From IMG/VR virus record IMGVR_UViG_3300030098_005078, positions 937 to 32,075 of that record: 31,139 nucleotides of DNA; one strand, given 5' to 3'. Of this stretch, positions 9,358-31,139 are shown in pieces. Position 1 is the first letter of the stretch. Every line of letters starts with the position of its first letter. The notes under the pieces are model-generated. The model was not told the DNA's origin, did not search any database, and saw only the letters and a list, made by a program, of their open reading frames with translations. The position numbers and the translations under genes were made by a program. Source of the DNA: a virus.

Positions 9358-10185
9358 TTATAGACCGAAGACTTTATAGGTAGGAGTTTGATTTCGCCAA
9401 AACTCCATTTGTTTATATTTATTGATTATATCATTACTCAAATACATTTCATTATTTCTATATATCTTTTCAACCTTAGTTCGTACTTTATGCATGTCCT
9501 TTAACCCATAAACAATGTCCTTTTCTTCAAATTCTGTCTCTACATTATCAAAATTATGAGTATAATGTGGCAAATCTAAAAAATCATAGATACGATTCAT
9601 CTCAACCTGAGAATTATTAACTAAATCTTCATACTCAACAATTAATATATATTTATCCCAACCCTTTCGATAAGCCTCAGATAGTGCAATATAAGATAAT
9701 CCAATAATTCCCTGCGAACACATCAAATAATCAGATCTATTATCATTATTAATTTCTATATTATTAGATTTTAAATTATCATCAATGAAATTATTATCAT
9801 CACTCCTTTCTATAAGTTGAAGAAAGGATGCTATTATATCATGAATATTTCTTACTGGGCAAATAATCTTGGGACTCTTAGTAATATAATCATTAATATG
9901 TTCTAATTGATTCACCCATCCTCTAGATTTATCTACAATAATAGATTCCGATACATTATAATAATAATTATGTGGTATGGATGATATTACTTTATGAGCA
10001 CAATCTGGTTTTGGATGTGCTCTATATTGTTCAGAATTTTTTAACAAATACTCCTCAGTATAATGAATCGTATCTAACACTGGAGAGTTAGTCGATGCAT
10101 GTATCTGTGGATTTTGATTCAATAATGATGTAATTAATGTAGAACCAGATCTAGGTAATCCAGAAAGAAAATGAAATGTTTTCAT
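9358..10185 (-). CDS. PAPS-dependent sulfotransferase
   Basis: 275 aa, the usual size for this family. The 5'-phosphosulfate binding loop is SGLPRSGSTLITSLL at residues 8-22. The 3'-phosphate binding motif is VRNIHDIIASF at 111-121, with the R112 and S120 pair expected for PAPS binding. A downstream VEYEDLVNNSQVEMNRIYDFL block matches the family's YEDLxxxPxxxxxxIxxFL segment. It should transfer sulfate from PAPS to a hydroxyl of a sugar, tyrosine or small molecule; the acceptor cannot be told from sequence. It is placed between two kelch-like giants, 18 bases after one and 3 bases before the next, so it is co-expressed with them. It is more AT-rich (many I, N, K codons) than its neighbours, which may reflect a separate origin. 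Confidence 0.88.
   Translation of the reverse strand: MKTFHFLSGLPRSGSTLITSLLNQNPQIHASTNSPVLDTIHYTEEYLLKNSEQYRAHPKPDCAHKVISSIPHNYYYNVSESIIVDKSRGWVNQLEHINDYITKSPKIICPVRNIHDIIASFLQLIERSDDNNFIDDNLKSNNIEINNDNRSDYLMCSQGIIGLSYIALSEAYRKGWDKYILIVEYEDLVNNSQVEMNRIYDFLDLPHYTHNFDNVETEFEEKDIVYGLKDMHKVRTKVEKIYRNNEMYLSNDIINKYKQMEFWRNQTPTYKVFGL
9416..9423 (-). promoter_or_regulatory. Candidate internal late promoter for the 944-aa kelch-like gene
   Basis: AATAAATA within the 3' end of the sulfotransferase gene, 62 bases before the next ATG. Chance matches are expected in AT-rich coding DNA (similar ones occur at 9650-9657 and 5690-5697), so support is weak. Confidence 0.35.
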
Positions 10186-14146: not shown

Positions 14147-14801
14147 CCCCAAAAACATGGGAACCTACATGACATAGTTTTATTTCAGTATCTAACCATG
14201 CTTTGAACCCACATTGTGATGCTCTCTCAAAGAATGAAAAATCTTCTGGCATATAAGACTCTCCTTTTTTATATTCATGGAAGAAATGATACGAATTGTA
14301 ATATTCCTTTTCTGTTATTGGATAATTTGATGCATTTGTTGAAGGAATGTGCTTCAATTCTGATCCAAATTTTTGTATTATACCCTCAAACACTCTACGA
14401 TGAATTAAAGCAAAACCAAATCCAATATTTTCAATTTCAACTAAACCTCCTTCTGCTCTTGGTGGTTGTGTAATATTATAGTTATATCTAAGTGGAATAG
14501 TTTTCATTGGATATGCACCACAAACAATATCCTTATTATGGTTTATAAGACGTAATACATGAGATGGTTCAAATCCAATATCTGCATCAATAAACATTAG
14601 ATTAGTGTACTCTGTATTGTTTAAAAAGAAATTTGCAATTCTAGACCTTCCCTTTGTAATAAGAGACTCATTTGCCAGTGTTAATAAACCATGATCGATA
14701 TTATTACTTCTTAAATCTTTTCCAAGATTAAATAAACCTTTTGCAGTTTTATCTGAAACCATTCCACCGTAACACGGCAAAGCAATAAGCATAGTTGTCA
14801 T
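14142..14801 (-). CDS. GT-A type glycosyltransferase
   Basis: 219 aa. The N-terminus MLIALPCYGGMV starts a Rossmann-like strand. A DxD-type metal/nucleotide-sugar motif is present as MFIDADIGFEPSHV (D72-A-D74), followed by CGAYPMK at 94-100. The C-terminal YMPEDFSFFERASQCGFKAWLD (from 183) contains the acidic ED pair typical of the catalytic or acceptor loop, then LCHVGSHVFG, a common end in phage and bacterial members that resemble Anp1-like or GT2 enzymes. It probably adds a sugar to a virion protein or glycan; donor and acceptor are unknown. The ATG overlaps the TGA of the preceding oxygenase gene (ATGA), so the two are translationally coupled and may act on one pathway (inference). Its stop codon lies within the late promoter of the next gene. 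Confidence 0.82.
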   Translation of the reverse strand: MTTMLIALPCYGGMVSDKTAKGLFNLGKDLRSNNIDHGLLTLANESLITKGRSRIANFFLNNTEYTNLMFIDADIGFEPSHVLRLINHNKDIVCGAYPMKTIPLRYNYNITQPPRAEGGLVEIENIGFGFALIHRRVFEGIIQKFGSELKHIPSTNASNYPITEKEYYNSYHFFHEYKKGESYMPEDFSFFERASQCGFKAWLDTEIKLCHVGSHVFGE

Positions 14802-15385
14802 ACTAATAACTCCACATTAAAAGACATTGAAATTCTGAGTTGATCACTCGTATTGGGATTAACAAAATGAGGTAACCAAGAAGGAAATAATACTAATTGC
14901 CCCATTTCAGGTTGATGCATATAATATTCATCCTTTATTATAGCAGATCTTTGGAAATCCATCATCCTTGCTGGTCGTGGATCTTCAAATGATAATGGAC
15001 TATCATTATTTGGCACGTCAACATAATATACACCACTCATCCATGATCCAGGATGAACATGAGTAAAATTATACCCTCCCTTGGGATTAACATTAGCCCA
15101 CATTGCACGAATTACCGCTTCTGGTTTATTTCTATCGGCATCAGTAAGTTTTTCAAGTAAAAAATTAACTACTCCTCCAAATTTTTCTAGGAGTGGTTCA
15201 AATATTTTTTCTTGCCACAATAAAGTATCGGATTGATATCCTCCTCTATTACTACGTTTTTTTCCTTCATCTTTTGATGCTAGATCTATAAGGAAATCTT
15301 TATATTTTTTATTTTCCTTCTCATCATAAATGTCAAGATGATAAACATCAGTAGGGAATAACCCTCGTTGAGTAATGTTGTACAT
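14798..15385 (-). CDS. 2OG-Fe(II) oxygenase, TIGR02466-like
   Basis: 195 aa. The block FTHVHPGSWMSGVYYVDVP at 107-125 is the family signature (HxHPxSxxSGVYYV), with H109/H111 as candidate metal ligands. LFPSWLPHFVNPN gives the distal H173, and LRISMSFN gives R184 for 2-oxoglutarate. The N-terminal 100 residues have the usual preceding helical part, including MWANVNPKGGYN. Members of this family are common in marine T4-like phages but have no proven substrate. The gene lies 19 bases after the 874-aa fibre-like gene and overlaps the GT-A gene by four bases. It is a different oxygenase subfamily from the two other oxygenases in the window. A hydroxylation step linked to the glycosyltransferase is a reasonable but untested reading. 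Confidence 0.85.
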   Translation of the reverse strand: MYNITQRGLFPTDVYHLDIYDEKENKKYKDFLIDLASKDEGKKRSNRGGYQSDTLLWQEKIFEPLLEKFGGVVNFLLEKLTDADRNKPEAVIRAMWANVNPKGGYNFTHVHPGSWMSGVYYVDVPNNDSPLSFEDPRPARMMDFQRSAIIKDEYYMHQPEMGQLVLFPSWLPHFVNPNTSDQLRISMSFNVELLV

Positions 15386-18473: not shown

Positions 18474-18481
18474 TATTTATC
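18474..18481 (-). promoter_or_regulatory. T4-type late promoter (GATAAATA) for the 134-aa gene
   Basis: GATAAATA 14 bases before the ATG at 18459. The internal TAA is the stop of the 1210-aa fibre gene. The leader would be very short, so the transcript may start close to the ATG. Confidence 0.72.
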
Positions 18482-21400
18482 CCACAAAACCTTGAATATC
18501 AAAGGTTACAAAAATATCAGCTGCGTATCCGCTATTATTTGTAACTGTAATACCTTTTGAGCACCCTGCAACTGTAAAACTAGAATCACCACTTGCTCCA
18601 CCAGCATTATTAAATACTGTTGGTGTTACTCCAGAAGTAGCGGTTGCTCTCATCGCAATAAGATACACTTGTGTTCTCGAATATGTTGCATTACCATCTC
18701 TACAACTAGTAATAGTAACTAAACCACCCCCATAAGTGCTTGCTGTTTGGAAATCATGAGAAGCTCCATCTGCTACTGATTCTTCCTTAAAAGTTTCTTT
18801 ACAGGTAGTGAAAGAAGAAGGAGCAACACCCTTACGAGCCATATGATGTCTTCCTGTCATTTGAACTTCTTCATCACCTTGAAGTCTTAAAACTTCTGAC
18901 TGGGAAGTTACGGTAGAACCATTATGAAGACTAAATGAAAGCATATTAGAAGCTGCACCACCACTATGTTCTGCTTTGATTGAATGATATCTAATTGTGT
19001 GGTATGGTGTAACTCTTCCTATTCTTATAACTTCTCCTATAACATCAGCATTAGAATGATGAAGTGATAATAATGGGTCAGTGCCACTATTATTTCTTAC
19101 ATCTAGGGCTGATACTGGGATATTGGTTCCGATACCAACTTTGCCTCCAGCAAAATTCATATAATCATAAATGTTTGAGGTATTATCAACCTCTTGTCTG
19201 AGAGAGAAACCATCTGTTGTCCAATTAGTACCTGTATTCCTTCTATAATGATAAAAACTTAATCCAGAACAGTTACCTGTTGTTTGACCTCCAAATATTG
19301 CGATTTTATGATCATCAAATTGAGTTCCTCCTAAATTACCAGGTGCAATTGCGACTAATGGAGTTGAAGTAAATACACTACCAAGAGTACCACCTGCAGT
19401 AGCTCCAACCTGAAGATCACCACATAATGGATTATCAGTTCCGATACCAACCTCACCATTACCCATAATGGTCATTCTTGGCAATTGACCATGACTAATA
19501 TTATGACCAACACCAAACTGCATTTTTGCTTCACTTGCACCTGTGTCACCAGTTACATAAATTGATCCTGCACCCTTACTATCTCCACCAGATGATGTAC
19601 GAAGAAATTCAATTGCAGAATGATTACCATCACCTTGAGATTCTATTGTTAATACAGAATCACCCCCATATTTCCAGAGGTGTAAGTTATGATCTGGATC
19701 ATCAGTTCCGATACCAATATTACCATCAGATTTGATGAACATTCTTACAGTATTTCCATAAGTAAATTTGTGACTCAAAGCATTGAATCTCATATTACTG
19801 TAAGAACCATTCTGGAAGCTTCCAGTTGTTAGGCAATGTAGAGCAGCACCACTAACACCATCAGTACCAATTATTATTCCAGCATTTGTTCCATTGTCAC
19901 AAAAACTAGCAGCACCATCTACATTAAGTGAACCATAATCGGTAACTCCTACCCCAATAAGTACTTTACCTGCTTGAGTGAATTTAATTCTTTCTTGTCC
20001 ACCCAAATCAAAATCCATACCACCATAACCATAATAATGAAGTCCACCACTTGCACCTATCGTAGAATCAAATTTAATTGCATGTGCAGCAGGTTCAGAA
20101 ACATTACCATAATCTCCTCTGAATGAAAAATAACTTCCAGAATTTACTCCACCATTACCAGATACAAGAAGTTTGATATCAGCACTTGGAGTGGTACCAG
20201 TACCAATAAGCACATCACCATCACGATTGATGCGAAGTTTTTCACTATTAGAGTTAACAAAAAATTGCATCGAATCATCAGTATGATCATATCTTATTTC
20301 ACCAGTATCAGCATCATTATCAGCAAATTCTATTTGAGAGTACTTAGTAGATGGTGCTTTAATTCTTAAACGAACATCATGAGTTTCTGATTCAAACAAT
20401 GAAACTAGTAGACTATCACCATCATAGACGTGAAATTCAGTGTCTGGATCATCAGTTCCGATCCCGATTTTACCTGCTGATGTGATGCGAAGCCTTTCTT
20501 CTGGTGTAGCACCTTCACAAGTAAGAAAAGTTGTATCAAATTGATTATTACCAGTTGTATCTAAAACTTTAATAGAATTAAATCTATCATCAGGACTTGC
20601 ATCTGTTGGAACAAATTTTAACTCAGTACTCGTATTTGCAGTTGTTCCGTGATTTTCTAATATTAATGATACTAAATTATTTCCAGCACTGCTCTGGTAA
20701 ATATGCATTCCACCGATTGGATTGGTGGTACCCACACCAACTTTCCCTAGATGATGAATATAAACTCTAGGTGTATTTTCACTACCTATTAAACCAGTTC
20801 TTAATGCTAAGTCATGTCCTTTACTTCCAATAGAAGGAGCATATTTTTCATCAGTCGTAGAAGGATCTAACATCCTAATAAAACTTCTATTTGCAGCATG
20901 TCTAGATGAAACAAGTCCTACTACCTGATTATCTGAATATACAGTCAGTTTTCTAGCTGCATAATCAGTTCCAATTCCAACACTACCATCAAATGTAGAT
21001 ACACCAACTACATTTAATTTCGTAAATGAACTTATACCTGTAGTTGTATTCAATATTGCTACTGTAGCACCAGCACCTACATGAATACCTTGCTGTGCCG
21101 TAATGATACCAACAGCATCTATATTTGTTACGTCTGTATATGTTAAAGTACCACCAATCGAGACGTTACCCGTGAATGTTGCAGCAACACCCGTAATATT
21201 ATTGATAGTAACATCATCTGAACTTGTTAGAGTTACATTACCTGTTCTACCATAAAATCCTGTTACACCACCTGCAGCTGCTCCTGCGAATCCAATATGT
21301 CTTACCTGTATTGCTTCACCAGTAAGAGGAGCATTTGTGAATACTATTTCCTGACCAATGAGTTTATATGCTCTTGTAGTAGTTGCATCTGATGGATGTT

Positions 21401-22109
21401 GTACGACACCATTTATCGTAACTAATACATTCTCATTATTTGCAGGTAACTTAGATAATGTAAAGTTTGTTGCACTACTGTCACCATCAAAATTATCTAC
21501 CTTATTATCTGCTATTTCCCATGATGGTAAATTACTTGCAAGGAATGTTCCCCAGAAAGTATCTGTAGAAATTGGTGCAGTAGAAAATACAATTACATTA
21601 TTGGTATCTATTCCAAATCCACTTGATGGTGAAGTACCATCCTTTGGTTCCTGTACTACACCGTTAACTGATATCTGAAGTTGTGCTGCTCTGGTTAATT
21701 TTACATGATATCCAGTCTGGTATGTTGCTTTGAATTTTGTATTCGTTCCATCAAAAGCAATATTTAATGTATGAGCAGTTCCTGAAGTTCCTGATAATGA
21801 AATATCAATTGCTGTACCATTCGCAGCATTAGTTGCATTAGTTGCAAGTTGTATTGTATCTTTATCCTGTCTTATGACATAATAGGCAGTAGCAGTTGTT
21901 AATCCATTAATTGCAGCACCACCACCATGTGTATATGTTACTCTCTGTCCTTGTACGAATCTATGATCATAAAATGTAAGTGTATCATTGGCAGCAGAAA
22001 CAACGGTAGTAGAAGTTGCATCAAAAGTTTCAGTATATGATGATATATCATCTAATACTTTAAAACTCTGATTTTGTCCTACTGTAGGTTGATTTCCGTA
22101 ATATGCCAT
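18477..22109 (-). CDS. Giant tail-fibre-like protein with repeated GIGTDDP shaft motifs
   Basis: 1210 aa. The N-terminal third (1 to about 270) holds the MAYYGNQPTVG adaptor and two copies of a domain with V(T/S)INGVVQxP and (I/V)VF(S/T)xAP. Next comes a shared module (VSIGGTLTYTDVTNIDAVGI, then IHVGAGATV). The shaft carries regularly placed motifs: KVGVGTTNPIGGMHIY, KIGIGTDDPDTEFHVYD, NIGIGTDDPDHNLHLW, EVGIGTDNP, KVGIGTNIPVSALDV. These are typical of beta-helical phage fibres. The last 100 residues, from FKEESVADGASHDF, look like a compact beta-sandwich tip (QVYLIAMRATATSG) that may bind the receptor. A CATAAATA late promoter overlaps the stop of the upstream chaperone-like gene. It is the fourth gene of module B. 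Confidence 0.78.
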   Translation of the reverse strand: MAYYGNQPTVGQNQSFKVLDDISSYTETFDATSTTVVSAANDTLTFYDHRFVQGQRVTYTHGGGAAINGLTTATAYYVIRQDKDTIQLATNATNAANGTAIDISLSGTSGTAHTLNIAFDGTNTKFKATYQTGYHVKLTRAAQLQISVNGVVQEPKDGTSPSSGFGIDTNNVIVFSTAPISTDTFWGTFLASNLPSWEIADNKVDNFDGDSSATNFTLSKLPANNENVLVTINGVVQHPSDATTTRAYKLIGQEIVFTNAPLTGEAIQVRHIGFAGAAAGGVTGFYGRTGNVTLTSSDDVTINNITGVAATFTGNVSIGGTLTYTDVTNIDAVGIITAQQGIHVGAGATVAILNTTTGISSFTKLNVVGVSTFDGSVGIGTDYAARKLTVYSDNQVVGLVSSRHAANRSFIRMLDPSTTDEKYAPSIGSKGHDLALRTGLIGSENTPRVYIHHLGKVGVGTTNPIGGMHIYQSSAGNNLVSLILENHGTTANTSTELKFVPTDASPDDRFNSIKVLDTTGNNQFDTTFLTCEGATPEERLRITSAGKIGIGTDDPDTEFHVYDGDSLLVSLFESETHDVRLRIKAPSTKYSQIEFADNDADTGEIRYDHTDDSMQFFVNSNSEKLRINRDGDVLIGTGTTPSADIKLLVSGNGGVNSGSYFSFRGDYGNVSEPAAHAIKFDSTIGASGGLHYYGYGGMDFDLGGQERIKFTQAGKVLIGVGVTDYGSLNVDGAASFCDNGTNAGIIIGTDGVSGAALHCLTTGSFQNGSYSNMRFNALSHKFTYGNTVRMFIKSDGNIGIGTDDPDHNLHLWKYGGDSVLTIESQGDGNHSAIEFLRTSSGGDSKGAGSIYVTGDTGASEAKMQFGVGHNISHGQLPRMTIMGNGEVGIGTDNPLCGDLQVGATAGGTLGSVFTSTPLVAIAPGNLGGTQFDDHKIAIFGGQTTGNCSGLSFYHYRRNTGTNWTTDGFSLRQEVDNTSNIYDYMNFAGGKVGIGTNIPVSALDVRNNSGTDPLLSLHHSNADVIGEVIRIGRVTPYHTIRYHSIKAEHSGGAASNMLSFSLHNGSTVTSQSEVLRLQGDEEVQMTGRHHMARKGVAPSSFTTCKETFKEESVADGASHDFQTASTYGGGLVTITSCRDGNATYSRTQVYLIAMRATATSGVTPTVFNNAGGASGDSSFTVAGCSKGITVTNNSGYAADIFVTFDIQGFVG
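19693..19712. repeat. 20-base direct repeat in the 1210-aa fibre shaft (copy 1)
   Basis: Encodes IGTDDPD on the minus strand and is identical to 20443-20462, 750 bases away. It marks the regularly repeated GIGTDDP shaft motif. Confidence 0.75.
20443..20462. repeat. 20-base direct repeat in the 1210-aa fibre shaft (copy 2)
   Basis: Identical to 19693-19712 and in the same reading frame, 250 codons apart. Confidence 0.75.
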
Positions 22110-22122
22110 ATTACTTTTTAAA

Positions 22123-22130
22123 TATTTATG
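22123..22130 (-). promoter_or_regulatory. T4-type late promoter (CATAAATA) for the 1210-aa fibre gene
   Basis: CATAAATA 13 bases before the ATG at 22109. The internal TAA is the stop of the 126-aa gene. Confidence 0.72.
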
Positions 22131-22506
22131 AGGTGGTAAGATCGATAACCCATTGAGGAAGTGGTGCTATAGTAGTGACACCAACTTGACTCTTTGGATA
22201 CTTTGTTTTAATTGATGTAATTTTATCTTTCCATGTTGTAGTACCATTCACTGCATCCCAATACTGCATATCTTGTTGTTCTTGTAAACTAGGATATTCA
22301 GACATACGAGCATGAGTATAAGTAACAATACCAGCAATAGTAGCACCTTCTACACAAGCTGTTCCAATCCCAACAACATCAGCAACAAACTGATCATAAT
22401 CCAAATTACCAGGTGCTAATGGAATAGACATTATCAGTTGACCAGAATCTGATAACTTATTAATTGCTACGTCTACACCATCGACATGTCGTATTTTATA
22501 CTTCAT
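22126..22506 (-). CDS. Small fibre-associated protein, XkdW-like (putative assembly chaperone)
   Basis: 126 aa. Residues 71-80 (YPSLQEQQDM) and 102-105 (KYPK), with QYWDAVNGTTTWKDKI between, resemble the core of XkdW-type phage proteins (YPxxxDQLDxxxW ... KxKYPK). That similarity is recalled, not searched. The gene lies between an adaptor fibre gene and the 1210-aa fibre gene, in the same slot that module A fills with a different small protein (29381-29758). Position and size suggest help in folding or trimerising the large fibre. It has one of the strongest ribosome binding sites in the window (AGGAGGT, 4 bases before ATG), as expected for a protein needed in high amounts. Confidence 0.65.
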   Translation of the reverse strand: MKYKIRHVDGVDVAINKLSDSGQLIMSIPLAPGNLDYDQFVADVVGIGTACVEGATIAGIVTYTHARMSEYPSLQEQQDMQYWDAVNGTTTWKDKITSIKTKYPKSQVGVTTIAPLPQWVIDLTTS

Positions 22507-22510
22507 AATT

Positions 22511-22517
22511 ACCTCCT
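22511..22517 (-). promoter_or_regulatory. Strong ribosome binding site of the 126-aa chaperone-like gene
   Basis: AGGAGGT, 4 bases before the ATG at 22506. It overlaps the TAG stop of the upstream fibre gene. It is much closer to the anti-Shine-Dalgarno sequence than the sites of the giant fibre genes. Confidence 0.8.
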
Positions 22518-23793
22518 ATATTTCTGCTTGTAAAATAATGCCATTTCTTTCTGCTGCACTATGCTTGGAACCAACATGGCATGGAGTAACAGAACCAGCA
22601 TCCGTTACTGGATCCCAATCTAACCATATGGAATGTAAGTTTGAACCTTGACTGTTTATACCAGTAAACACACAATCTTGCTGTGAAGAATTACCATTAT
22701 ACTGCACATAAAACTCATTGGTTGGACTAGATACATTATCAAAACTATAAACTGCTGCAGTTGGCATTTTTAAAAAAGGTACTGGTAAGAAAGACATAGT
22801 TTGAACAGATCCTACTGAACGAGTCCATCCTCTTCCAATGCAATTATACTCGTTTTGTGCAGGAGCATATCCTCCTGGTCCTAACATATATTGAGATCCT
22901 AATATTTGACATCTTCTCATACACAATGCAAGTTCTTCTCCATAAGGACGGTGCTCATAAGGAGTTGATGTCTCTCCTATTTCTATTTGAACTCCCGTGA
23001 TATTAATATAATTACTTGTCGAATCTGCCCAATTAGTATCACATCCAGCAAATCTTTTAGTATTTCCTATTTCAAGCCATTTACCATCACCAGCAAAATC
23101 TCCATCATTATAATTTGTTCCAGCTGAAAAACCAATATCAAGTACAAGTCCTTTAGCAGTCGTATAATCAAATTTAACATTTGTATCACCAGGAAAAGTC
23201 ACTGTTTTATATTCCCAAGTATTTGGAGAATTTACCCTTACTCTTCTACAACAAACCATGTCACCACTTGATGGACCATTATTATTTTCATTTTCAAGGT
23301 TAACTTGAACACTACCAGTCTTATTTGATTTAACCCAGAATGAAGCTGAAACAGGTTTTGCATAAGTAGTTCCAAATTGAACTTGCCATGAATCAACTGC
23401 TTCTATTCTTTGAATAAGATACAAATACGATCCAACAGGTATTGAAGTTTGTGCAGATGTACATTGATACTTTAGAGAATGAGTAAATTCACCAGTAGGA
23501 GGTACATCATATTGATCTTGAGAAATTGTCCATGTTCCAACATTTAAATAATTAATGGCCATATCTGGACCATGAAAATTTGCTGCGGTTTGTCCAGTAG
23601 TTGTAGTGGCTCTTTGACATACTTTCATATCACCATTCACATTCAATCTTCTTCTACCTGCCCTTGCAAGTCTAAAAGTTTCTTCTGCAGTTTGAGATCT
23701 TAACAACTGACTACCATGAAGTCCTACTGGAAGATCAAGTTGAGATATTTTATCTCTTAAATTAAATGCTGGTTTTTCGATTCTTACGGTCAT
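22516..23793 (-). CDS. Tail-fibre protein with VRIEKPAFNLRDK adaptor and carbohydrate-binding-like middle
   Basis: 425 aa. The N-terminal 20 residues (MTVRIEKPAFNLRDKISQLD) are nearly the same as in the 177-aa protein of module A. Residues 51-61 (NVNGDMKVCQR) are a well-known phage-fibre segment usually read as NxLxNGDFxIWQR. The middle (about 80-270) has the look of a jelly-roll carbohydrate-binding module: SFWVKSNKTGSVQVNL, TWEYKTVTFPGD, ending in ITGVQIEIGETSTPYEHRPY. The end (290-425) starts with LALCMRRCQ and continues as a beta-rich tip. The ATG lies one base after the TAG of the upstream LamG gene, so the two are coupled. The stop codon overlaps the Shine-Dalgarno of the next gene. It probably takes part in glycan recognition. 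Confidence 0.77.
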   Translation of the reverse strand: MTVRIEKPAFNLRDKISQLDLPVGLHGSQLLRSQTAEETFRLARAGRRRLNVNGDMKVCQRATTTTGQTAANFHGPDMAINYLNVGTWTISQDQYDVPPTGEFTHSLKYQCTSAQTSIPVGSYLYLIQRIEAVDSWQVQFGTTYAKPVSASFWVKSNKTGSVQVNLENENNNGPSSGDMVCCRRVRVNSPNTWEYKTVTFPGDTNVKFDYTTAKGLVLDIGFSAGTNYNDGDFAGDGKWLEIGNTKRFAGCDTNWADSTSNYINITGVQIEIGETSTPYEHRPYGEELALCMRRCQILGSQYMLGPGGYAPAQNEYNCIGRGWTRSVGSVQTMSFLPVPFLKMPTAAVYSFDNVSSPTNEFYVQYNGNSSQQDCVFTGINSQGSNLHSIWLDWDPVTDAGSVTPCHVGSKHSAAERNGIILQAEI

Positions 23794-23794
23794 A

Positions 23795-26662
23795 CTATTC
23801 TTCTACTATAAGTCCATTGGATGCTGATATGCAAACTCCAATTGATTCCGTCGTATTATTTATCCTAACCAATCCATCAAAATCACTACGCCCTGATGAT
23901 GTTCCTGCATGTAAGATTTCCGTTGAATCATCATAACCAACTGCCTCTACTGCTTGAGAAGAACCATATAATGTGCATTTTGCATCAGGTGCAAATAATT
24001 TCTTTTCATCATTATACATCTTCACGATTTTCTCTGGAGGTATTGCTGTATTTGATATTCTCCAAAGTGACATTTGCCCAGTAAATGGTTTTGAATCTCC
24101 ATCACCATATGATGCTGTAGCTCTTCTACCAATGGTAAGTTCAGCAGTAGTATTATCGAAATTAGGATTTGAAAGATCATGAGAAACATCATTCCACAAC
24201 CCAGTATCTACACCATTAATATAAAGAAAAGGTCTCCTACTATCAGATCTATTAACACCACAATAATGATGCCATACACCAGTTGGTAAAGTTGTTGCAT
24301 ACGCTACAGCTGCTCCACCATAAAGATCGATCTGAAATCTCATATCACCATTGCTTTGCTGTTCAATCAACATATAATCAACTTCTCCATCTGGTTGCAT
24401 TAGCATCATAAGACACTCTTGAGTATTATTTGATGCTAACTTAAACCAACCGTATACAGTAAAATCACTTGATTGCCAATTTAAATCACTATTATATGCT
24501 TGTTCAAGATAATTCTCAGAACTAAATCCACCATAAGCAAGTAATTCTGCACCAGTTGCTACAGGAGTTCTTTCTATATGACCCCATGTTACCAGACCCT
24601 TTTTATTAAATGAACGATCATCGGTCTCGACTACTTGCATTGTAAAGTTGTCAATATCACAGACGCAACTGTTGTCATTCAAAAGAGAAAATAAAGTTCC
24701 TGTTTCAGTAAGAGTCACATAATAAACATGAAAACCATTTGAACTTGGTAAATCACCCATCTGACCATCATTAAATCTCCATCTAAGGGGGTTAGATCCA
24801 GTTTTATTTGATATTGTATAGGTAATAACAACTGTTTGTCCTGATGCATAATTACCAACAGTAATATCTAAGTATTCTCCAGATGAAACAGTTCCTGTTT
24901 TAAGAACTCCACCAGAAACATTCCAACTAGTTCCACTTCTTTCCGACCAGTTAATACTTGCAATTGCAGCACCAAAAGTAGAATCATTACCAGTAATCCA
25001 TCCTTCTGCACCACCATTTTGTGCAAGACCACTTCTCCCAAACAGATCATGAGTCTCTACCAGTGATACGTTATCAAAAGTATGAGTAGCAGCACCAATA
25101 CCATACACAACCACATAAGCAGATGTTTGTGTTGCTTTCCATACTCCTGATCTGGTAACGTCACTACCAGATACAATATCCCCCAATGATATATTAGGTG
25201 ATGCAGAAGTAGAATTAGGTCCAATATATGCAGAAGTATACCCAGTCTTATGAGTATACGTCATTTTATAATACTTTCCTACTGTAAGACCCGTTACTTG
25301 TTGATAGGCATTTTGATTACTCGTAGTTGCATATGAAAAAACACCACTACTTTCACTTAAAGTTCCACCAGAGTTAGTCCATCCAGTAGTTCCCTGATTT
25401 GCATTACCATTAGTAACTAAATTTGCTGTACTAGAAACTGGTTCAGGAGCAGCACCAAGATACGCACCTTTAATATCTCCATACATCCATCCAGAAGTAT
25501 CATATGATCTTATCATACAATATCCAGCACTACCACTGTAATCAGTACCAACACCTACATAATCAACTAACTGAAGTCCCTTATCATTAGAATTACCAGC
25601 AACTGCTAAAGTATTACCTTTAGTGTGAGTTAAACCATTAAAAGTTGCAGAATTCCTAATCTTAATATCATGTCCAACGTTAGGAATAGATGAAGTATCA
25701 AGTGAAACAACAATATCCTCAGGTTGTCTCGCAGTTACATCGTTTCCTGTTGGAATATTAGTTATGAATGGATATATATTACCACCTCTACTCATCCAAG
25801 CAATTTTATCACCTGCATCATTAAATGTGATATGATTAGCTTGATTATTAGAATAAAGATTTGTTGTATTATCATAAACATATCCCAAATCATCGATAAC
25901 ACTAATACCACCTTGGGTAGCAACTGCTATAGTAGGTGTTGGAAGTCCTCTATCAGGATCAACTTTTGCATTTGGCAATACTCTCATTGCTATAGAATTC
26001 ACATAAGGATTAACAATCTTAATTCCATTAGTAACAATATTATTATCAGTAGTTCCTTCAGTAAGAACTGCCCAACCAGGTTGTATTGTATCTCTTTCAT
26101 CAAATACAGTACGGTATTGATATACACCTGGATTATTATGTTGAATTGCATTCTCTTTAATAAAATCTATTATTGATAAATTTCCATATGAAGTTCCACC
26201 ATCACTACTACCAACACATAATATTCCATTTAATGCATGTACAGAAGTAAGATTACTACTTCCATATTGTATAAATGTCCATCCAGTATCCGTTCCTTTA
26301 AATTGCATCCACATTGGACAATCTTGACTATCTGCATCATAAATTGTAAGCATGTCATTCAAAGCAACTATCACAGCAACAGCAGGAAATTCTCTTCTGA
26401 TTCCTCTTTTTTCTGTTCCTAAAGTCTCATTATACCAAGAAGTATGTCTACATTTATGTCTCCATGCACCACCATCACTATCTTTTCTAGTATCATATAC
26501 AAATACAGCAGTTGCTGTATCTCCAGTTTTTGCCTTAATAGCAGTAATATTTTCTATCTCTACATCTTTTAATTGTGCATGATCAGGATCTTGATAGGCC
26601 AATCCACCCAACATTGCGTTGGTGGGTACTTGACTATTTCCAATTCCGACTAGATTAGGCAT
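23795..26662 (-). CDS. Large multidomain fibre protein: propeller-like, two CBM-like and one LamG-like domain
   Basis: 955 aa. Domain order as read by eye: 1 to about 410 is a propeller-like region starting MPNLVGIGNSQVPTNAMLG, with AVFVYDTRKDSDGGAWRHK and RREFPAVAVIVA, a protein type I associate with marine T4-like phages. About 415-540 is a jelly-roll domain (LVTNGNANQGTTGWT ... HTFDNVSLVE). About 545-680 is a second, similar domain (LAQNGGAEGWITG ... VCDIDNFTMQVVE). About 700-895 is a LamG/concanavalin-like domain (DFTVYGWFKLAS, GVWHHYCGVNRSDSRRPFLY, PFTGQMSLWRIS). The last 60 residues (AKCTLYGSSQAV ... ISASNGLIVEE) recur in the right-edge gene. GGAGAGA lies 8 bases before the ATG and a late promoter overlaps the preceding stop. 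It is probably a glycan-binding virion protein. Confidence 0.78.
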   Translation of the reverse strand: MPNLVGIGNSQVPTNAMLGGLAYQDPDHAQLKDVEIENITAIKAKTGDTATAVFVYDTRKDSDGGAWRHKCRHTSWYNETLGTEKRGIRREFPAVAVIVALNDMLTIYDADSQDCPMWMQFKGTDTGWTFIQYGSSNLTSVHALNGILCVGSSDGGTSYGNLSIIDFIKENAIQHNNPGVYQYRTVFDERDTIQPGWAVLTEGTTDNNIVTNGIKIVNPYVNSIAMRVLPNAKVDPDRGLPTPTIAVATQGGISVIDDLGYVYDNTTNLYSNNQANHITFNDAGDKIAWMSRGGNIYPFITNIPTGNDVTARQPEDIVVSLDTSSIPNVGHDIKIRNSATFNGLTHTKGNTLAVAGNSNDKGLQLVDYVGVGTDYSGSAGYCMIRSYDTSGWMYGDIKGAYLGAAPEPVSSTANLVTNGNANQGTTGWTNSGGTLSESSGVFSYATTSNQNAYQQVTGLTVGKYYKMTYTHKTGYTSAYIGPNSTSASPNISLGDIVSGSDVTRSGVWKATQTSAYVVVYGIGAATHTFDNVSLVETHDLFGRSGLAQNGGAEGWITGNDSTFGAAIASINWSERSGTSWNVSGGVLKTGTVSSGEYLDITVGNYASGQTVVITYTISNKTGSNPLRWRFNDGQMGDLPSSNGFHVYYVTLTETGTLFSLLNDNSCVCDIDNFTMQVVETDDRSFNKKGLVTWGHIERTPVATGAELLAYGGFSSENYLEQAYNSDLNWQSSDFTVYGWFKLASNNTQECLMMLMQPDGEVDYMLIEQQSNGDMRFQIDLYGGAAVAYATTLPTGVWHHYCGVNRSDSRRPFLYINGVDTGLWNDVSHDLSNPNFDNTTAELTIGRRATASYGDGDSKPFTGQMSLWRISNTAIPPEKIVKMYNDEKKLFAPDAKCTLYGSSQAVEAVGYDDSTEILHAGTSSGRSDFDGLVRINNTTESIGVCISASNGLIVEE
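23857..23864 (-). promoter_or_regulatory. Candidate internal late promoter for the 425-aa fibre gene
   Basis: GATAAATA inside the RINNTT codons at the end of the 955-aa gene, 64 bases before the next ATG. The paralogous position in module A has the same element at the same distance. Confidence 0.42.
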
Positions 26663-26682
26663 TAGTTATATCTCTCCTGTGG

Positions 26683-26690
26683 TATTTATT
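26683..26690 (-). promoter_or_regulatory. T4-type late promoter (AATAAATA) for the 955-aa LamG gene
   Basis: AATAAATA 20 bases before the ATG at 26662, with a GGAGAGA ribosome site between. The internal TAA is the stop of the 892-aa fibre gene. It marks the start of module B. Confidence 0.76.
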
Positions 26691-29364
26691 GGTTGTTGAG
26701 ATTCTTCAATTGATTATCAGGAAGACGTTTAGGATAATACTGAACTCTCTTTAAATGTCCATTTAATTGATCTGCCCCATTAGCACCCTGATAAAAAGTT
26801 ACTCGATTATAAGCACCATCTAATGTGGCAGAAGTATCATTAGTAAGAGTACCATTTTTAATATTAATACCTGCAACATCATTTTCTTTATATGCAAGAG
26901 TAGTTACGTGTAAAGTATTCAACCTACTAGCATTTGCTGAACTACTTCCACCATTTGCTTGTGCAGTTCCACCAGTATTAACATATCCATATCCACCTGA
27001 ACCACTACCAGAACCAGCAACAATATCTATTACTGAATTATTACTATCATTAATTTGGAATACTCTCAATCCAACACTATCATTACCTAACCAATATGCA
27101 CAATTTATAGTTCCTTCTGTTTGATTAAAGAAATCAGTAAATTCTTCTCCATCTATTAGTGCTAAATCTGCTCCACGAGTTACTGAACTACCTTTTGATC
27201 CTCCTGGAATATAAGAAGTTAGAAAAGTTCCCAATTCTAACTGAAGACCCCAGACATATATTCCAATACTATCATCACCTTGATAATTTCCAGAACTATC
27301 ATTTCTTGGTCTGACGTGCCATCTAAATGTTCCAGAACCAGATGCACTATCAGCAACATCACCTGTCACAGTAAAACGCCACCATCCATTTGGATATTCT
27401 GTCGCAGTTGCCGAAGTTCCACTACTGAATCCACCAGTACCAGTATATGTTGCTGCTCCAGTGCTTAAATTAAACTTATATGCAATTGTAACTGTACCAC
27501 TAGCACCAGTACCATTAACGAAAATTTCTGCAAAACTTTGTGATCCTGCTTTAGCCCAACAGGATGAAGTATATACGGCAGTAATATCACCAATAGCAAC
27601 ATCTTCATACAGAGTATGCTGACCATTACTACGATCATCACGAATTGCAATAGCATCATAGGATCCATCTGGTGCTTTAGTTGCTGTAGTATTTTCAGTC
27701 AAGCAACCAGCTCTTGACCAAGCTGATTGACCTACAACATCAGTAGAATATGGAAGTAAATTAATTCTAGACTCTTCAAGCAAAAATCCTTTACACTCTC
27801 CTGTTACTGGATCGTGATCAAATCTTGGAGTATTATCACTAACTAGTTCAACAAGACCTTGTTCATTAACGAATGATGCAGGTCCACTTCTACTATATGT
27901 AATTCTTGAATCTAATCTTTTAGTTGATGCAAAGTTAAGATCTAATGTTGGTCGAATAGTTGGATAGTCATTTGTTGCAGCAACTTCTCCCGTTACTGTA
28001 ATACCTGTTGAGGTGGTAGTTAATCTTACAGTATCATTATTATATAAGTAAACTTCATTACCCTCAAAAAACCTAGCAGAAGTCTTATTATCTGCTTCAT
28101 TCTTAAACCAAACATCATCTGAAAGAACATATATTCTACCAGTCGTATTTTTTACAATTGCATGTGCATTATTATGCTGAAGAGTAAAATCAGATCCATT
28201 ACCAAAAGCAGCTTTTACATCATCATTGAAGATTAAAGTATCCGCAGAAGCATCCCAAAGACAAGAAGTAATACCAGCAGCAGTACCAAAGAATGCTACA
28301 TCACCACCTCTGTCATTATGACCACCATAAAGAATTGCAAATCTATCAGTTGCATAGTTAGCTACTGCTGGACCACCTCTAAAATATAAATTACCAGCAT
28401 ATGGTTTCATTGACCATATACTCTCACCACTCCCAGATCTTTCTATTACGAATGGTTCAGTCGTACCTCCACCAACATTTACATGAGCAACTCCTAATGG
28501 TGTACCAGTTCCAATACCCAATCGCCAATTTGACGTGCTGCGAATATTAGTAATTCCATTAGATGCTAAATCAATATCAGCACCACCGCCACCACCTTCG
28601 TATGAATCAATCACCATACGGTTTGGTGATCCACCACCTCGGATGGTTAAGTACTTATTATAATGTGTATCCTTTAATCTTAAAACTTCAATATTTGAAC
28701 CATTCCAAACTTCAAGTTTTGAATTTGGAATTTCAGATCCAATACCAACTTTACCCGTATCACGATCTATTGTAATTCTTTTTGTTGTTGAATCCGTACC
28801 ACAAGTTATGTGAAGTTTATTATCTGCTCCACTATAAAACATTCCACCACCATTATTGGTAGTTCCTGTTGCTCCCTCAGATAAACGTAATGTTGCATCA
28901 TTAGCACCAGTATTTGTAGTAAGTTCTAATAATGGTCCAGAAGATTTAACAATAGTAACATCATCACTAAATGTAGCAGTTGATAATGTAGAATTACCAT
29001 CTACATTTAATTTACTAAATGAACTTATACCTGAAACTACATTAACTATTCCTACAGTAGCACCAATACCTAAATGTATTCCTTCCTGTGCTGTGATTAT
29101 ACCAACAGAATCAATGTTGGTAACATCCATATAAGTTAGTGTTCCACCGATACTTACGTTACCAGTAACCGTAAGTGCTCCACTAACATGACCATCACCA
29201 TTAACATCTAAATTAGTAGCAGTAACAATACCACTAACATCTAAACCACCACTTCCTATAACTCCACCATCAAATGGTCCGACAAATTTACTTGCGGTTA
29301 TAACTCCTACTTTGTAATTGTCTGTGGTAGTAATACCTGGACCACGAACTCTGGTGAATGCCAT
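26686..29364 (-). CDS. Giant tail-fibre-like protein with carbohydrate-binding and LamG-like tip
   Basis: 892 aa. The N-terminus MAFTRVRGPGITTTDNYKVG leads to a short-repeat shaft. The shared module VSIGGTLTYMDVTNIDSVGI / IHLGIGATVG follows, then GKVGIGSEIPNSKLEVW and LGIGTGTPLGVAHV. From about residue 480 a typical phage-fibre receptor region begins: PTLDLNFASTKRLDSRITYS, FVNEQGLVELV, TPRFDHDPVTGECKGFLLEE, SRINLLPYST. A carbohydrate-binding-like domain follows (YTSSCWAKAGSQ ... NGWWRFTVTGD ... WGLQLELGTFLTSYIPGG). The end is a LamG-like domain (EFTDFFNQTEGTINCAYWLG ... NRVTFYQGANGADQLNGHLK). A CATAAATA promoter overlaps the stop of the upstream chaperone gene. It is the fourth gene of module A and the counterpart of the 1210-aa fibre, with a different tip. 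Confidence 0.8.
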   Translation of the reverse strand: MAFTRVRGPGITTTDNYKVGVITASKFVGPFDGGVIGSGGLDVSGIVTATNLDVNGDGHVSGALTVTGNVSIGGTLTYMDVTNIDSVGIITAQEGIHLGIGATVGIVNVVSGISSFSKLNVDGNSTLSTATFSDDVTIVKSSGPLLELTTNTGANDATLRLSEGATGTTNNGGGMFYSGADNKLHITCGTDSTTKRITIDRDTGKVGIGSEIPNSKLEVWNGSNIEVLRLKDTHYNKYLTIRGGGSPNRMVIDSYEGGGGGADIDLASNGITNIRSTSNWRLGIGTGTPLGVAHVNVGGGTTEPFVIERSGSGESIWSMKPYAGNLYFRGGPAVANYATDRFAILYGGHNDRGGDVAFFGTAAGITSCLWDASADTLIFNDDVKAAFGNGSDFTLQHNNAHAIVKNTTGRIYVLSDDVWFKNEADNKTSARFFEGNEVYLYNNDTVRLTTTSTGITVTGEVAATNDYPTIRPTLDLNFASTKRLDSRITYSRSGPASFVNEQGLVELVSDNTPRFDHDPVTGECKGFLLEESRINLLPYSTDVVGQSAWSRAGCLTENTTATKAPDGSYDAIAIRDDRSNGQHTLYEDVAIGDITAVYTSSCWAKAGSQSFAEIFVNGTGASGTVTIAYKFNLSTGAATYTGTGGFSSGTSATATEYPNGWWRFTVTGDVADSASGSGTFRWHVRPRNDSSGNYQGDDSIGIYVWGLQLELGTFLTSYIPGGSKGSSVTRGADLALIDGEEFTDFFNQTEGTINCAYWLGNDSVGLRVFQINDSNNSVIDIVAGSGSGSGGYGYVNTGGTAQANGGSSSANASRLNTLHVTTLAYKENDVAGINIKNGTLTNDTSATLDGAYNRVTFYQGANGADQLNGHLKRVQYYPKRLPDNQLKNLNNQ

Positions 29365-29377
29365 TATAGTTTCTAAG

Positions 29378-29385
29378 TATTTATG
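29378..29385 (-). promoter_or_regulatory. T4-type late promoter (CATAAATA) for the 892-aa fibre gene
   Basis: CATAAATA 13 bases before the ATG at 29364. The internal TAA is the stop of the 125-aa chaperone gene. Confidence 0.72.
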
Positions 29386-29758
29386 ATGGTGTAGTTGGCC
29401 ACTCTACAGAAGTCAAATCTAAATTATCATTAGAATCTAATTTTGGTGTAGAAAGTGCAGGAAGATCTCGTAATGCTTGTCGATATGATTTCCATGCTTC
29501 TAATATAATGAGATCAGAAGATGCTCTCCAATCAGTTGCTTGCAAACGACGATTCCTTTCTTCACGTAATAATTTCATCGGATATGCATTTACCAATTCA
29601 GTAACTTTTGCATTAACTTCATCTTCTGTTGGTTTTGTTTGAGATTCATCTTGCCAAACTAAACGCTCATAATCATTTGTAGCAGTTGGATTATTGGGAA
29701 GAGTCCATATTGCTCCTGGCTTAAGTGCCACTAATGCATCAACTATGTCTGGTTTCAT
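29381..29758 (-). CDS. Tail-fibre assembly chaperone-like protein (Phage_tail_APC type)
   Basis: 125 aa from the ATG at 29758. A longer reading from 29785 is less likely, because AAAGGAGA lies 8 bases before the 29758 ATG and that ATG overlaps the upstream TGA as ATGA. Residues about 62-100 carry KLLREERNRRLQATDWRASS and SYRQALRDLP, the chaperone core seen also in the 189-aa protein at 418-987. The N-terminal half has AIWTLPNNPTATNDYERLVW, a short segment often seen before this core in phage proteins that describe the needed residues of the fibre operon. It precedes the 892-aa fibre by 16 bases and probably assists its folding (inference from position). Confidence 0.76.
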   Translation of the reverse strand: MKPDIVDALVALKPGAIWTLPNNPTATNDYERLVWQDESQTKPTEDEVNAKVTELVNAYPMKLLREERNRRLQATDWRASSDLIILEAWKSYRQALRDLPALSTPKLDSNDNLDLTSVEWPTTPS

Positions 29759-30288
29759 TGTCTTATCTCCTTTACACTTAAGCATCTTACTATAGCAGCA
29801 TGAGCAATGTATGCGGTTCCACTACTAGTTGTTCTTCCCCATATATGATAACTAACTGATTCTCTAGTTTTAGGTTCATCATATAAAGCGAAACTACTAG
29901 ATGCTGTTACATACACACCACCACTACCACCAAAGTCTCCAACACAACCCATTCCCATATTGCTACCAGTAGTTGCTCCTAAATTAGTTGTATTATTTCT
30001 ATAAATTGTAACCGCAGAAGCACCAGTAGCAGTATTTGGTTGTTGTCCTGTAGCACTCCATTCAATAAGCAACAAACTATTATCAAAATGTGGAGTAATA
30101 GCAACACTGTACGACAGATCTGCCCATGTAGTACTAGTAGTAGTCAAATGAGTGGCTCCCATATTCTGATTATAGACATGTTGAATTACTGTGCCAGATG
30201 GTATTTTCTCATATGGAACATGGACATAATCAAGTTCGGTTAATTTATCTCTTAAATTAAATGCTGCTTTTTCTACTCTTACTACCAT
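29755..30288 (-). CDS. Short fibre protein with VRVEKAAFNLRDK adaptor
   Basis: 177 aa. MVVRVEKAAFNLRDKLTELD is the same adaptor as in the 425-aa protein of module B. The remainder is different: VIQHVYNQNMGATHLTTTST, LSYSVAITPHFDNSLLLIEW, VTIYRNNTTNLGA, then a YHIWGRTTSSGTAYIAH stretch. This beta-sandwich pattern occurs at the ends of many phage tail proteins. The start follows the TAG of the upstream LamG gene after one base (TAG T ATG), as in module B, and the stop overlaps the next start (ATGA). A candidate AATAAATA promoter lies 64 bases upstream in the LamG gene. It is a structural protein, probably of the baseplate or a short fibre. Confidence 0.74.
   Translation of the reverse strand: MVVRVEKAAFNLRDKLTELDYVHVPYEKIPSGTVIQHVYNQNMGATHLTTTSTTWADLSYSVAITPHFDNSLLLIEWSATGQQPNTATGASAVTIYRNNTTNLGATTGSNMGMGCVGDFGGSGGVYVTASSSFALYDEPKTRESVSYHIWGRTTSSGTAYIAHAAIVRCLSVKEIRQ
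29766..29773 (-). promoter_or_regulatory. Ribosome binding site that fixes the start of the 125-aa chaperone gene
   Basis: AAAGGAGA, 8 bases before the ATG at 29758. It supports this start over the in-frame ATG at 29785, which would overlap the upstream gene by 31 bases. Confidence 0.75.
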
Positions 30289-30289
30289 A

Positions 30290-31138
30290 CTATTGCTCCG
30301 CTATAAGTCCATTAGATGCTGAAATAGCAGTCGTTACTGCTGTCGTTGTATTATTTATTCTTCTCAATCCAACGAAATCACTACGTCCAGATGATGTTCC
30401 AACATTTACAATATCATTAGAATCATCATATGCTATAGCAGTTACTGCAGATGAAGATCCATATAAAGTACATTTTGCATTCTCTTGGAAGAGAGGTTTT
30501 TCATCATTATACATCTTTTTAACTTGTTCTGCTGTTGGTGCAGTAGTTGAATATCTTAATAAAGCAACTTTTGCATCACCACCATTTTCTCCAGTAAATC
30601 CAGGAGCTCTAAAAATGCCTACATATGTATCAGTTAAATCAGTACTCCAACTATTTCCAGCTTTAAGTAATTCTCCATTTAGATAGATATATGCTGTCCC
30701 ACCTCTTCTCATTCCAATAAGTTGTGACCAGGCACCTAACGGAATTCTATTGCTAGTATCATAAGTTCCATGATTTGTTCCACCATCAGCATTATAAAAA
30801 TATGGAGAATAACCACCACTACCATTTGTTGCCATTTTTAAAGTAAAACCAGTTGATCTACTCTGTCCACCAGTTGTAGGAGTAGACAGTTGAAAAAGAT
30901 GAAGATAATTACCAGTACCTGATCCATTAGTGCCAGGTTTTATCCAAGCAGTTACTGAAAAATCACCAGATCCAGGTGCAGTTGTATAGGTATGAAGATA
31001 ATTATTATAAGTATATCCACTATAAGAAACTAAGTCTGCACCAGTCGCAACAGGTTCTTTGGTGATTGCATTGCTAACTTGAAGATGACTCTTATTTCCA
31101 TAAGTTGTATCACCTGCACAGCGATCTAATTGTCGTCC
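30290..31138 (-). CDS. LamG-type fibre protein, C-terminal part only (cut by right edge)
   Basis: The frame is open from the right edge (codon phase begins at 31138), so 282 C-terminal residues are seen. A Met at 30835 is internal. The visible part is a LamG/concanavalin-like domain (TKEPVATGADLVSYSGYTYN, DFSVTAWIKPG, FTLKMATNGSGG, GAWSQLIGMRRGGTAYIYLN) followed by the tail KMYNDEKPLFQENAKCTLYG ... ISASNGLIAEQ. Both parts align by eye with the C-terminus of the 955-aa protein (PVATGAELLAYGGF, DFTVYGWFKL, KMYNDEKKLFAPDAKCTLYG ... ISASNGLIVEE), so the two genes are paralogues. It is the first visible gene of module A. Glycan binding is inferred from the fold type. Confidence 0.8.
   Translation of the reverse strand, partial: GRQLDRCAGDTTYGNKSHLQVSNAITKEPVATGADLVSYSGYTYNNYLHTYTTAPGSGDFSVTAWIKPGTNGSGTGNYLHLFQLSTPTTGGQSRSTGFTLKMATNGSGGYSPYFYNADGGTNHGTYDTSNRIPLGAWSQLIGMRRGGTAYIYLNGELLKAGNSWSTDLTDTYVGIFRAPGFTGENGGDAKVALLRYSTTAPTAEQVKKMYNDEKPLFQENAKCTLYGSSSAVTAIAYDDSNDIVNVGTSSGRSDFVGLRRINNTTTAVTTAISASNGLIAEQ
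30352..30359 (-). promoter_or_regulatory. Candidate internal late promoter for the 177-aa fibre gene
   Basis: AATAAATA inside the RINNTT codons at the end of the right-edge LamG gene, 64 bases before the ATG at 30288. It corresponds to the element at 23857-23864. Confidence 0.42.
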
Positions 31139-31139
31139 T

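Follow-up and report, generated by a model that had tools for sequence, protein, structure and literature searches.

A widespread phage cassette with a constant linker, present in two diverged copies and probably serving host attachment

The stretch of DNA analyzed here (the window) comprises 31,139 nucleotides (nt), positions 937 to 32,075 of IMG/VR record IMGVR_UViG_3300030098_005078 (33,406 bases in total), and its source is an uncultured phage, probably a marine one. It contains two sets of cassette genes, all on the minus strand and transcribed in the order g19, g18, g17, g16, g15, g14, g13, g12, g11, g10. Each set holds a scaffold protein with a LamG domain, hereafter P (g19 in module A, g15 in module B), an adapter (g18 and g14) made of a short N-terminal peptide, the plug, followed by a tip, and a tail fiber chaperone (g17 and g13); giant fibers are encoded by g16 and g12. 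We consider it reasonably probable that these sets are two old, diverged copies of a common cassette, in which a constant linker separates two exchangeable tips, and that they function in T4-like host recognition. A preliminary description of the window had proposed a tandem duplication of a four-gene module followed by the swapping of receptor-binding parts. The exchange of tips is supported by relatives and by the comparison of module A with its closest one, whereas a duplication within this phage is not supported.

The constant linker and its flanks

The cassette is widespread in viral contigs. A first scan with the g15/g19 alignment as the query yielded 59 loci, and a second scan with 34 P proteins as queries yielded 507 encoding stretches, of which we retained the best as 79 loci, including 63 new ones. 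The C terminus of P and the start of the adapter are conserved throughout this large family, the adapter with its plug begins -1 to 4 nt past the P stop codon in most complete cases, and the plug peptide is of the type MTVRIxKPAxNxREKLxELD. After the plug, the tips fall into two main classes, class I (g14-like, 23 sequences aligned) and class II (g18-like, 16 aligned). The family alignment was made without L041, L058_6557, L059, L060 and two repeats of window rows, and rows from a contig already represented were dropped (L077, same as L062; L107, same as L023; L118, same as L071).

The C-terminal domain (CTD) of P and the adapter plug together form a stretch of about 240 to 300 nt that is mostly 88 to 100% identical in related contig pairs, and in those pairs the flanking LamG domain and adapter tip drop to the baseline of unrelated nucleotide sequences (44.5%, 95th centile 48.1%). 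The pattern extends across tip classes. Between L026 (class I) and L032 (class II), identity in 60-nt bins is 97 to 100% over the 180 nt that precede the adapter start; it is 88% in the adapter's opening 60 nt and 78% in the bin beginning at -240, and falls to 30 to 51% farther out on both sides; between L011 (class I) and L024 (class II), the corresponding values are 93 to 98%, 90%, 85% and 33 to 60%. L028 and L030, both of class I, are 95 to 100% identical from -240 to +120. In L026 and L032, homology returns inside the chaperone gene, near codons 67 of 179 and 113 of 226, which indicates that the exchanged piece consists of the adapter tip and the N-terminal part of the chaperone. Among 80 modules, 46 pairs have a CTD identity of at least 85%; the LamG domain is below 60% in 33 of these, the tip in 30 and both in 29, and the tip class differs in 8, each involving L032 or L011. 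These 46 pairs are not independent, and the set includes near-copies.

Module A itself appears to have undergone a tip swap within class II relative to L008. Their sequences agree at 91.3% along 919 nt (31100-30182), a stretch that takes in LamG, CTD and plug; the match ends 107 nt inside g18, the tips are 47% identical, and agreement is back at 29640 in g17, at 79%. In the window, the linker spans approximately 30229 to 30520 in module A and 23734 to 24025 in module B (both on the minus strand) and comprises the CTD of P, the stop-T-ATG junction and the plug; it holds repeat families D4, D7 and D10 in both modules, and that of module B is 75% identical to L008 at 24022-23731. Across the family, plug similarity tracks the CTD of P (r 0.35, p 0.001) rather than the tip class (r 0.01, p 0.37) in a first set of 37, from which seven rows and unclassed adapters were left out. 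In 18 other contigs freed of near-duplicates, the values are r 0.49 (p 0.03) for the CTD and r 0.15 (p 0.13) for the tip class.

It is very improbable that functional constraint on long-diverged proteins, with no exchange, accounts by itself for the conserved C terminus and plug. Both are conserved family-wide as protein (median CTD identity 63%), as constraint would predict, but islands of 88 to 100% nucleotide identity with flanks at baseline require a recent common ancestry of the linker without its flanks, and constraint does not explain why homology between L026 and L032 returns inside the chaperone gene.

For g14, 52 isolate phage records match and, among the 40 matches listed, the alignment starts at residue 21 or later and never in the plug. 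The P family gives only weak partial matches there: g15 and L047 each match a single record, and in the best 15 of the 34 records matching L045 the aligned parts of the query reach residue 536 at most and belong mostly, if not wholly, to its fiber part. Among isolate phages, no match was found for g18, for the 61-residue adapter start or for the class II adapter L033, the low-complexity filter being on for the latter two. Full-length g14 and g18 as queries retrieved nothing from the viral contigs, and the plug searched as a DNA pattern was found in one contig (L005, the same contig as L063). In L058 (6557-8864), P is divided over two overlapping open reading frames (ORFs), through a frame break or a sequencing error.

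Tip classes, chaperones and a proposed mechanism

Wherever a pair was typed by similarity, tip class and chaperone type agree. In the first set, all 10 blastp matches to g13 follow class I adapters, and of the 12 matches to g17, the 9 that adjoin an adapter all adjoin one of class II, the other three (L014, L040 and L042) being located elsewhere; a Fisher test of this linkage, which ignores kinship, gives 1e-5. Since iterative profiles built on entire chaperones did not keep the two types apart, typing was repeated on N-terminal parts. Motif typing of the chaperone N terminus (n = 44) gave 18 pairs of class I with type 13, 12 of class II with type 17, one of class I with type 17 and 13 untyped; the crossed case, L048, is in our view a 74-residue non-chaperone and a false positive. 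When first-set profiles were applied to 71 P ORFs from other contigs, we found 12 pairs of class I with type 13, 8 of class II with type 17, no crossed pair and one class I adapter with an untyped neighbor, the other P ORFs lacking either a typed adapter or a next gene in the available sequence. Removing near-duplicates by hand (L071/L118, L073/L074, L090/L106, L113/L116 and L109 of L023) left 11 and 4 pairs, respectively; in the neighbor survey of the first set, L045 and L046 are near-identical.

The second scan set also contains a third adapter type (LREELASLRNQGG...). Its group, in which LREEL... or a similar sequence follows the plug, comprises L072, L080, L085, L088, L089, L091, L092, L093, L110, L125 and L128, and neither a type-13 nor a type-17 chaperone was found where the next gene was tested. 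In L009, the plug MTVKVTKPAINLREKLSEL opens a 600-residue ORF of yet another kind near P.

We propose that the region is part of the host-recognition cluster of a T4-like phage of the cyano- or pelagimyophage type and that the cassette, which probably serves host attachment, would consist of a g16-like fiber shaft, the scaffold P, an adapter and a tip-matched chaperone. P would comprise a propeller, a carbohydrate-binding module, a LamG lectin domain and a conserved CTD of about 75 residues, and the adapter a constant plug of about 20 residues followed by one of several tips. P would lie at the distal part of the fiber, the plug would dock on the CTD of P, the chaperone would fold the adapter tip, and the LamG domain and the tip would be separate receptor-binding surfaces flanking the constant linker. 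Recombination would replace the LamG domain upstream, or the tip and the N-terminal part of the chaperone downstream, and leave assembly intact, which would be possible because the linker is nearly unchanged at the DNA level. The two copies would supply two sets of tips, class II in module A and class I in module B, and would stem from an old duplication or from the acquisition of a second cassette; in either case, the tips would have been exchanged later.

Predicted structures are compatible with these roles. The AF2 model of g18 (pLDDT 74.7) shows a short N-terminal helix and then a jelly roll, whose Foldseek matches include the TNF-like C-terminal domain of Pgp3, the PLTL lectin (TM score about 0.5) and C1q, the model being a monomer of moderate quality. 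The model of g15 (pLDDT 71.6) matched propeller-plus-lectin glycosidases weakly (TM score about 0.2) and ConA-like domains better (domain 4 of AbnA, TM score 0.64 by target length); its lectin fold also retrieves clostridial neurotoxin binding domains at 9 to 14% identity, a likeness of fold only.

More tentatively, we suggest a dedicated tip-exchange architecture, possible but one against which we would lean at present. The linker of about 300 nt would encode a socket (the CTD of P) and a plug across a gene boundary, the two surfaces would be exchanged independently, each tip would bring the class-matched N-terminal half of its chaperone, and phages could stack two or more cassettes, thereby displaying several tips simultaneously, with P possibly plugging into P as in L069. 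In that locus, a P that begins with a plug-like peptide (12825-13919) stands right after another P. P may plug into P there, which fits what a docking plug would allow.

The two copies in the window and their origin

In module A, g19 (30290..31139, minus strand; PF13385, 49.1 bits) is interrupted by the window end, so that the window covers its C-terminal 282 residues (LamG and CTD); it continues to the record end (stretch L004) for at least 726 residues, and its layout of propeller, carbohydrate-binding module, LamG and CTD is predicted from the alignment with g15, which extends along all of the g19 sequence in the record. A short run of N inside g19 lies just beyond the window end (31139 / L004) and keeps the reading frame, and the P of L008 aligns with g19 residues 1 to 726 on both sides of it. 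The adapter g18 (29755..30288, minus strand) has the 20-residue plug and, by family alignment, a class II tip, predicted to be a TNF/C1q-like jelly roll. It is followed by the class II-type tail fiber chaperone g17 (29381..29785, minus strand; PF16778, 47.7 bits; phrog_4912, tail fiber assembly), for which an internal ATG at residue 10, overlapping the g18 stop codon, is the likelier start, and by the giant fiber g16 (26686..29364, minus strand; phrog_5939, tail protein, 1e-85). In module B, P is complete in g15 (23795..26662, minus strand; 955 residues; PF13385, 56.1 bits). Next come the adapter g14 (22516..23793, minus strand; plug and class I tip; phrog_4492, tail fiber, 9e-30), whose tip we read as a putative carbohydrate-binding tail fiber domain, and the class I-type chaperone g13 (22126..22506, minus strand; phrog_9114). 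The giant fiber g12 (18477..22109, minus strand; PHROG tail family) belongs to a separate family and has a mobile block alone in common with g16 and g10. PHROG tail families were assigned to g11, g12, g14, g16 and g17. Both P proteins pass the gathering cut-off of PF13385 (Laminin_G_3, 27.6), and g17 passes that of PF16778 (Phage_tail_APC, 26.6).

The gene order and coordinates of the two modules given in the preliminary description were borne out, and most of the shared parts it had listed are real. Within the window, g15 and g19 are 37.7% identical over 284 residues (blastp, E 8e-37). Adapters g14 and g18 agree at 14 of 20 residues, the match being confined to residues 1 to 20 (E 4e-6), and use identical codons at all 13 identical residues after the initial Met. 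Both matches far exceed chance, and nucleotide repeats support the paralogy of P and of the adapter start. The TAG-T-ATG junction sits inside a 97-nt repeat that is 84% identical (23734-23830 / 30229-30325), and the module repeats keep a constant spacing of 6489 to 6495 nt; at the 6495-nt spacing of this repeat lie two adjoining blocks, one of 137 nt with 76% identity and one of 53 nt with 74%. Overall nucleotide identity between A and B is 71% in the CTD, 82% in the plug, 46% (baseline) in LamG and 44% in the tip, a pattern that suggests the same layout as in the comparison with L008, at a greater age. Tips and chaperone slots differ, as had been noticed, with class II and PF16778 (g17) in A and class I and phrog_9114 in B, where g13, the sole type-13 chaperone scanned, gave no match to the PF16778 model. 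The likeness of the C-terminal 62 residues of g15 and g19 (69% identical) is a family trait, since the family median is 63% (all pairs of 53 sequences) and the mate ranks 20th of 52 for g19.

The giant fibers proved a different matter. Blastp within the window aligned g12 and g16 at 38% over 216 residues and found no whole-gene match, and g10 has the block too (g10/g12, 43% over 69 residues; g10/g16, 34% over 120 residues). The fiber module described as shared does exist but is not specific to the two modules, and g12 and g16 do not hold as duplicated fibers. Short pieces of g16 match fibers of isolated cyanophages.

The phase of the proposed unit was also off. Among the 61 modules that have an ORF just upstream of P, this ORF is a g16-like fiber in 22, in 16 of these 24 to 27 nt away. 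Where P begins as g15 does (18 modules), an upstream ORF is present in 16, and each of these ORFs is g16-like. After the chaperone, a g16-like fiber and a g12-like start were each found in 2 of 27 cases (as with the 61 modules, kin are included). The natural unit would be fiber-P-adapter-chaperone (g16-g15-g14-g13), and, because a g16-like fiber precedes P in relatives, g16 would be the first gene of module B and not the last of module A. Fiber and P are fused in a single ORF in some relatives (e.g., L016, L029 and L045), from which we infer that the two act together. A second conserved junction block, made of the end of g16 and the start of g15 (26300..26756, minus strand), is about 80% identical in several contigs: 81% to L008, 78% to L063 and, over shorter stretches, 79 to 82% to L014, L023 and L013.

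How did the phage come to have two copies? We regard as unlikely a lineage-specific tandem duplication of the four-gene module in this phage, followed by divergence of the tips. Such an event would agree with the tandem arrangement of modules alike in gene order and parts, with the codon identity of the adapter starts and with the CTD of g15, to which g19 comes closest, by a margin of one percentage point. Against it, g19 is far nearer L008 than g15 in each segment (propeller 54%, LamG 89% and CTD 92% with L008, its nearest CTD match; 33, 28 and 69% with g15), and the g15/g19 identity ranks 36 and 39 of 51 in the propeller and 29 and 39 of 53 in LamG. The codon argument does not single out the pair either: propeller codon agreement at identical residues exceeds the codon-usage expectation in g15/g19 (z 3.7) and likewise in g15/L008 (z 3.4), and the nucleotide identity of the plug is equally high to L008 and L063. 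Moreover, g12 and g16 are not duplicates, and the phase differs. In a quick tree of 46 rows, made without eight partial or near-identical rows, g19 pairs with L008 (support 100) and g15 is unplaced. Forcing g15 and g19 together costs 37 log units (approximately unbiased test, p-AU 0.07). The same test does not reject a clade of these two with L008 (p-AU 0.31), and the two copies of L012 fall on the same side of a weak branch (72); both results speak for duplication. To judge by the identities, any duplication most likely predates the split from the lineage of L008.

We give nearly an even chance to two independently acquired cassettes, the second taken from another phage with no duplication within its own lineage, and judge uptake at least as likely as duplication. 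We counted two P genes in 7 of 50 records (G001, G002, G005, G007, G016, G039 and G049), with no completeness rating reaching 90%, and, among 61 further loci, in L069, L071 and L089; the contig of L071 bears a third P, in L118, which is cut by the locus end. The adapter classes are I+II in the window, L012, L023 and L071 and II+II in L007, G007 and G049, and the modules of G007 and G049 lie about 10 to 12 kb apart. Both the existence of the two kinds of pairs and this distance favor uptake, as does the fact that the copies are mostly not mutual nearest matches in L007, L012, L023, L062/L066, L014/L065 and the window (except for the CTD of g15). Against uptake, resolution in the tree is poor (stars on 6 of 43 inner branches, by the quick method), and the tests above do not reject an old duplication. 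P follows P in tandem in L006, L049, L069 and L089, with no intervening adapter in L006, L049 and L089. Among seven ranked in-record pairs, the copies of L006 alone are mutual best matches in both LamG and CTD, making that locus a candidate for a true local duplication.

Phage type, known systems and neighboring genes

The relatives suggest a T4-like phage. In L047, P and a class I adapter stand directly before neck, sheath stabilizer, terminase, sheath and tube genes of T4-like type, the neck genes being assigned to phrog_211 (Ad2) and phrog_460 (Hc2), and the record of L047 contains gp23. PF07068 (gp23 major capsid) was found in 1 of 23 relatives' records (G037; none of the 23 is rated at least 90% complete). 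The helicase gene of L063 matches cyanophages and single-cell marine viruses, and L038 carries a photosystem II D1 gene. UvsW, gp13 and gp14 are names that we presume to apply to genes of the relatives for which the search gave just a PHROG or "helicase." No recognized neck gene appears among the listed ORFs of the window and its two end stretches.

Several observations weigh against our reading of the cassette. The cross-class islands reduce to two contig groups; CTD similarity correlates with tip class in the separate contigs (r 0.32, p 0.03, n 18), as does propeller similarity, weakly, in the first set (r 0.10, p 0.03); and the co-inheritance of plug and CTD could be explained by their adjacency alone. 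Synonymous sites in the CTD show no excess over the rest of P between A and B, so no recent gene conversion is seen. Some class I adapters (L038, L047, L053 and L071) have no recognized chaperone as the next gene, the g18 model is moderate (pLDDT 74.7, TM score about 0.5) with a low pLDDT in the plug (51 to 58), the record ends inside g19, so that the fiber of module A itself is not visible, and the T4-like type is inferred from the relatives and not from the window's own record. A separate signal of gene conversion between the CTDs of A and B was considered and dropped: codon agreement lies at the 98th centile of pairs of like identity, yet it is as high in the propeller and with L008.

It is improbable that either set is in decay or serves as a spare that goes unused. 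The modules are known here from gene sequences alone, which leaves room for decay, but the ORFs of both modules are open, their stop-start spacing is tight and their chaperones are matched.

In pelagimyophages and cyanomyophages, the host recognition cluster is a variable tail fiber island with glycosyltransferases and concanavalin A-type domains, flanked by VrlC and the neck gene gp14 (PMC7029224). The window likewise has fibers (g12, g14 and g16, by PHROG family), a glycosyltransferase (g04) and LamG proteins in one island, and L047 has P and an adapter beside neck genes. In contrast, the available portion of that paper describes no P-adapter-chaperone cassette, plug, tip classes or paired copies, and the word stem "duplicat" does not occur in its main text. 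The exchange of fiber tips with their cognate chaperones is already known from the Alteromonas phages A5 and V22, in which, according to the portion of the report available, tail fiber and chaperone modules were co-transferred between distant phages (PMC10579305). The likeness lies in the exchange of a host-recognition module, fiber together with chaperone; the fibers are other ones, and that portion describes no scaffold in which a constant linker separates two exchangeable domains. Variable tips that dock by conserved N-terminal domains are known from the branched tailspikes of Ackermannviridae, for which several receptor-binding proteins per virion, with variable C termini, are described and duplication is proposed in the part of the source available (PMC11414711). 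They resemble the adapters in combining a conserved N-terminal part with variable tips and differ in their gp10-like XD and TD domains, the shared part here being about 20 residues. No gp10-like XD domain is among the Pfam and PHROG matches of the window proteins, in libraries not verified to contain an XD model. Of the chaperones in the window, g17 is a member of the PF16778 tail fiber assembly family, and g13 is not reached by its model.

We found no open-license paper whose title or abstract start describes such a scaffold, plug, gene-boundary linker and class-matched chaperones, although this does not prove that none exists. It is difficult to infer from sequence which hosts an uncultured T4-like phage can infect. 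A constant linker that marks the start of the tip would let likely adhesion tips be found and classed in many such phages, and would also allow each tip to be paired with its chaperone and its binding to be tested.

The far end of the cluster contains g01 (418-987), another tail fiber chaperone-like gene (phrog_4912), which falls below the PF16778 cut-off (20.7 bits). Three giant repeat proteins, g03 (1696-4617), g05 (6520-9354) and g07 (10204-14115), are mutual paralogues, g03 and g05 with weak Kelch matches, and alternate with enzyme genes: the 2OG-Fe(II) oxygenases g02 (1000-1668) and g09 (14798-15385), the glycosyltransferase g04 (4641-6494; PF13692, 33.5 bits against a cut-off of 27) and the sulfotransferase g06 (9358-10185). 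These enzymes possibly decorate the virion or the host surface.

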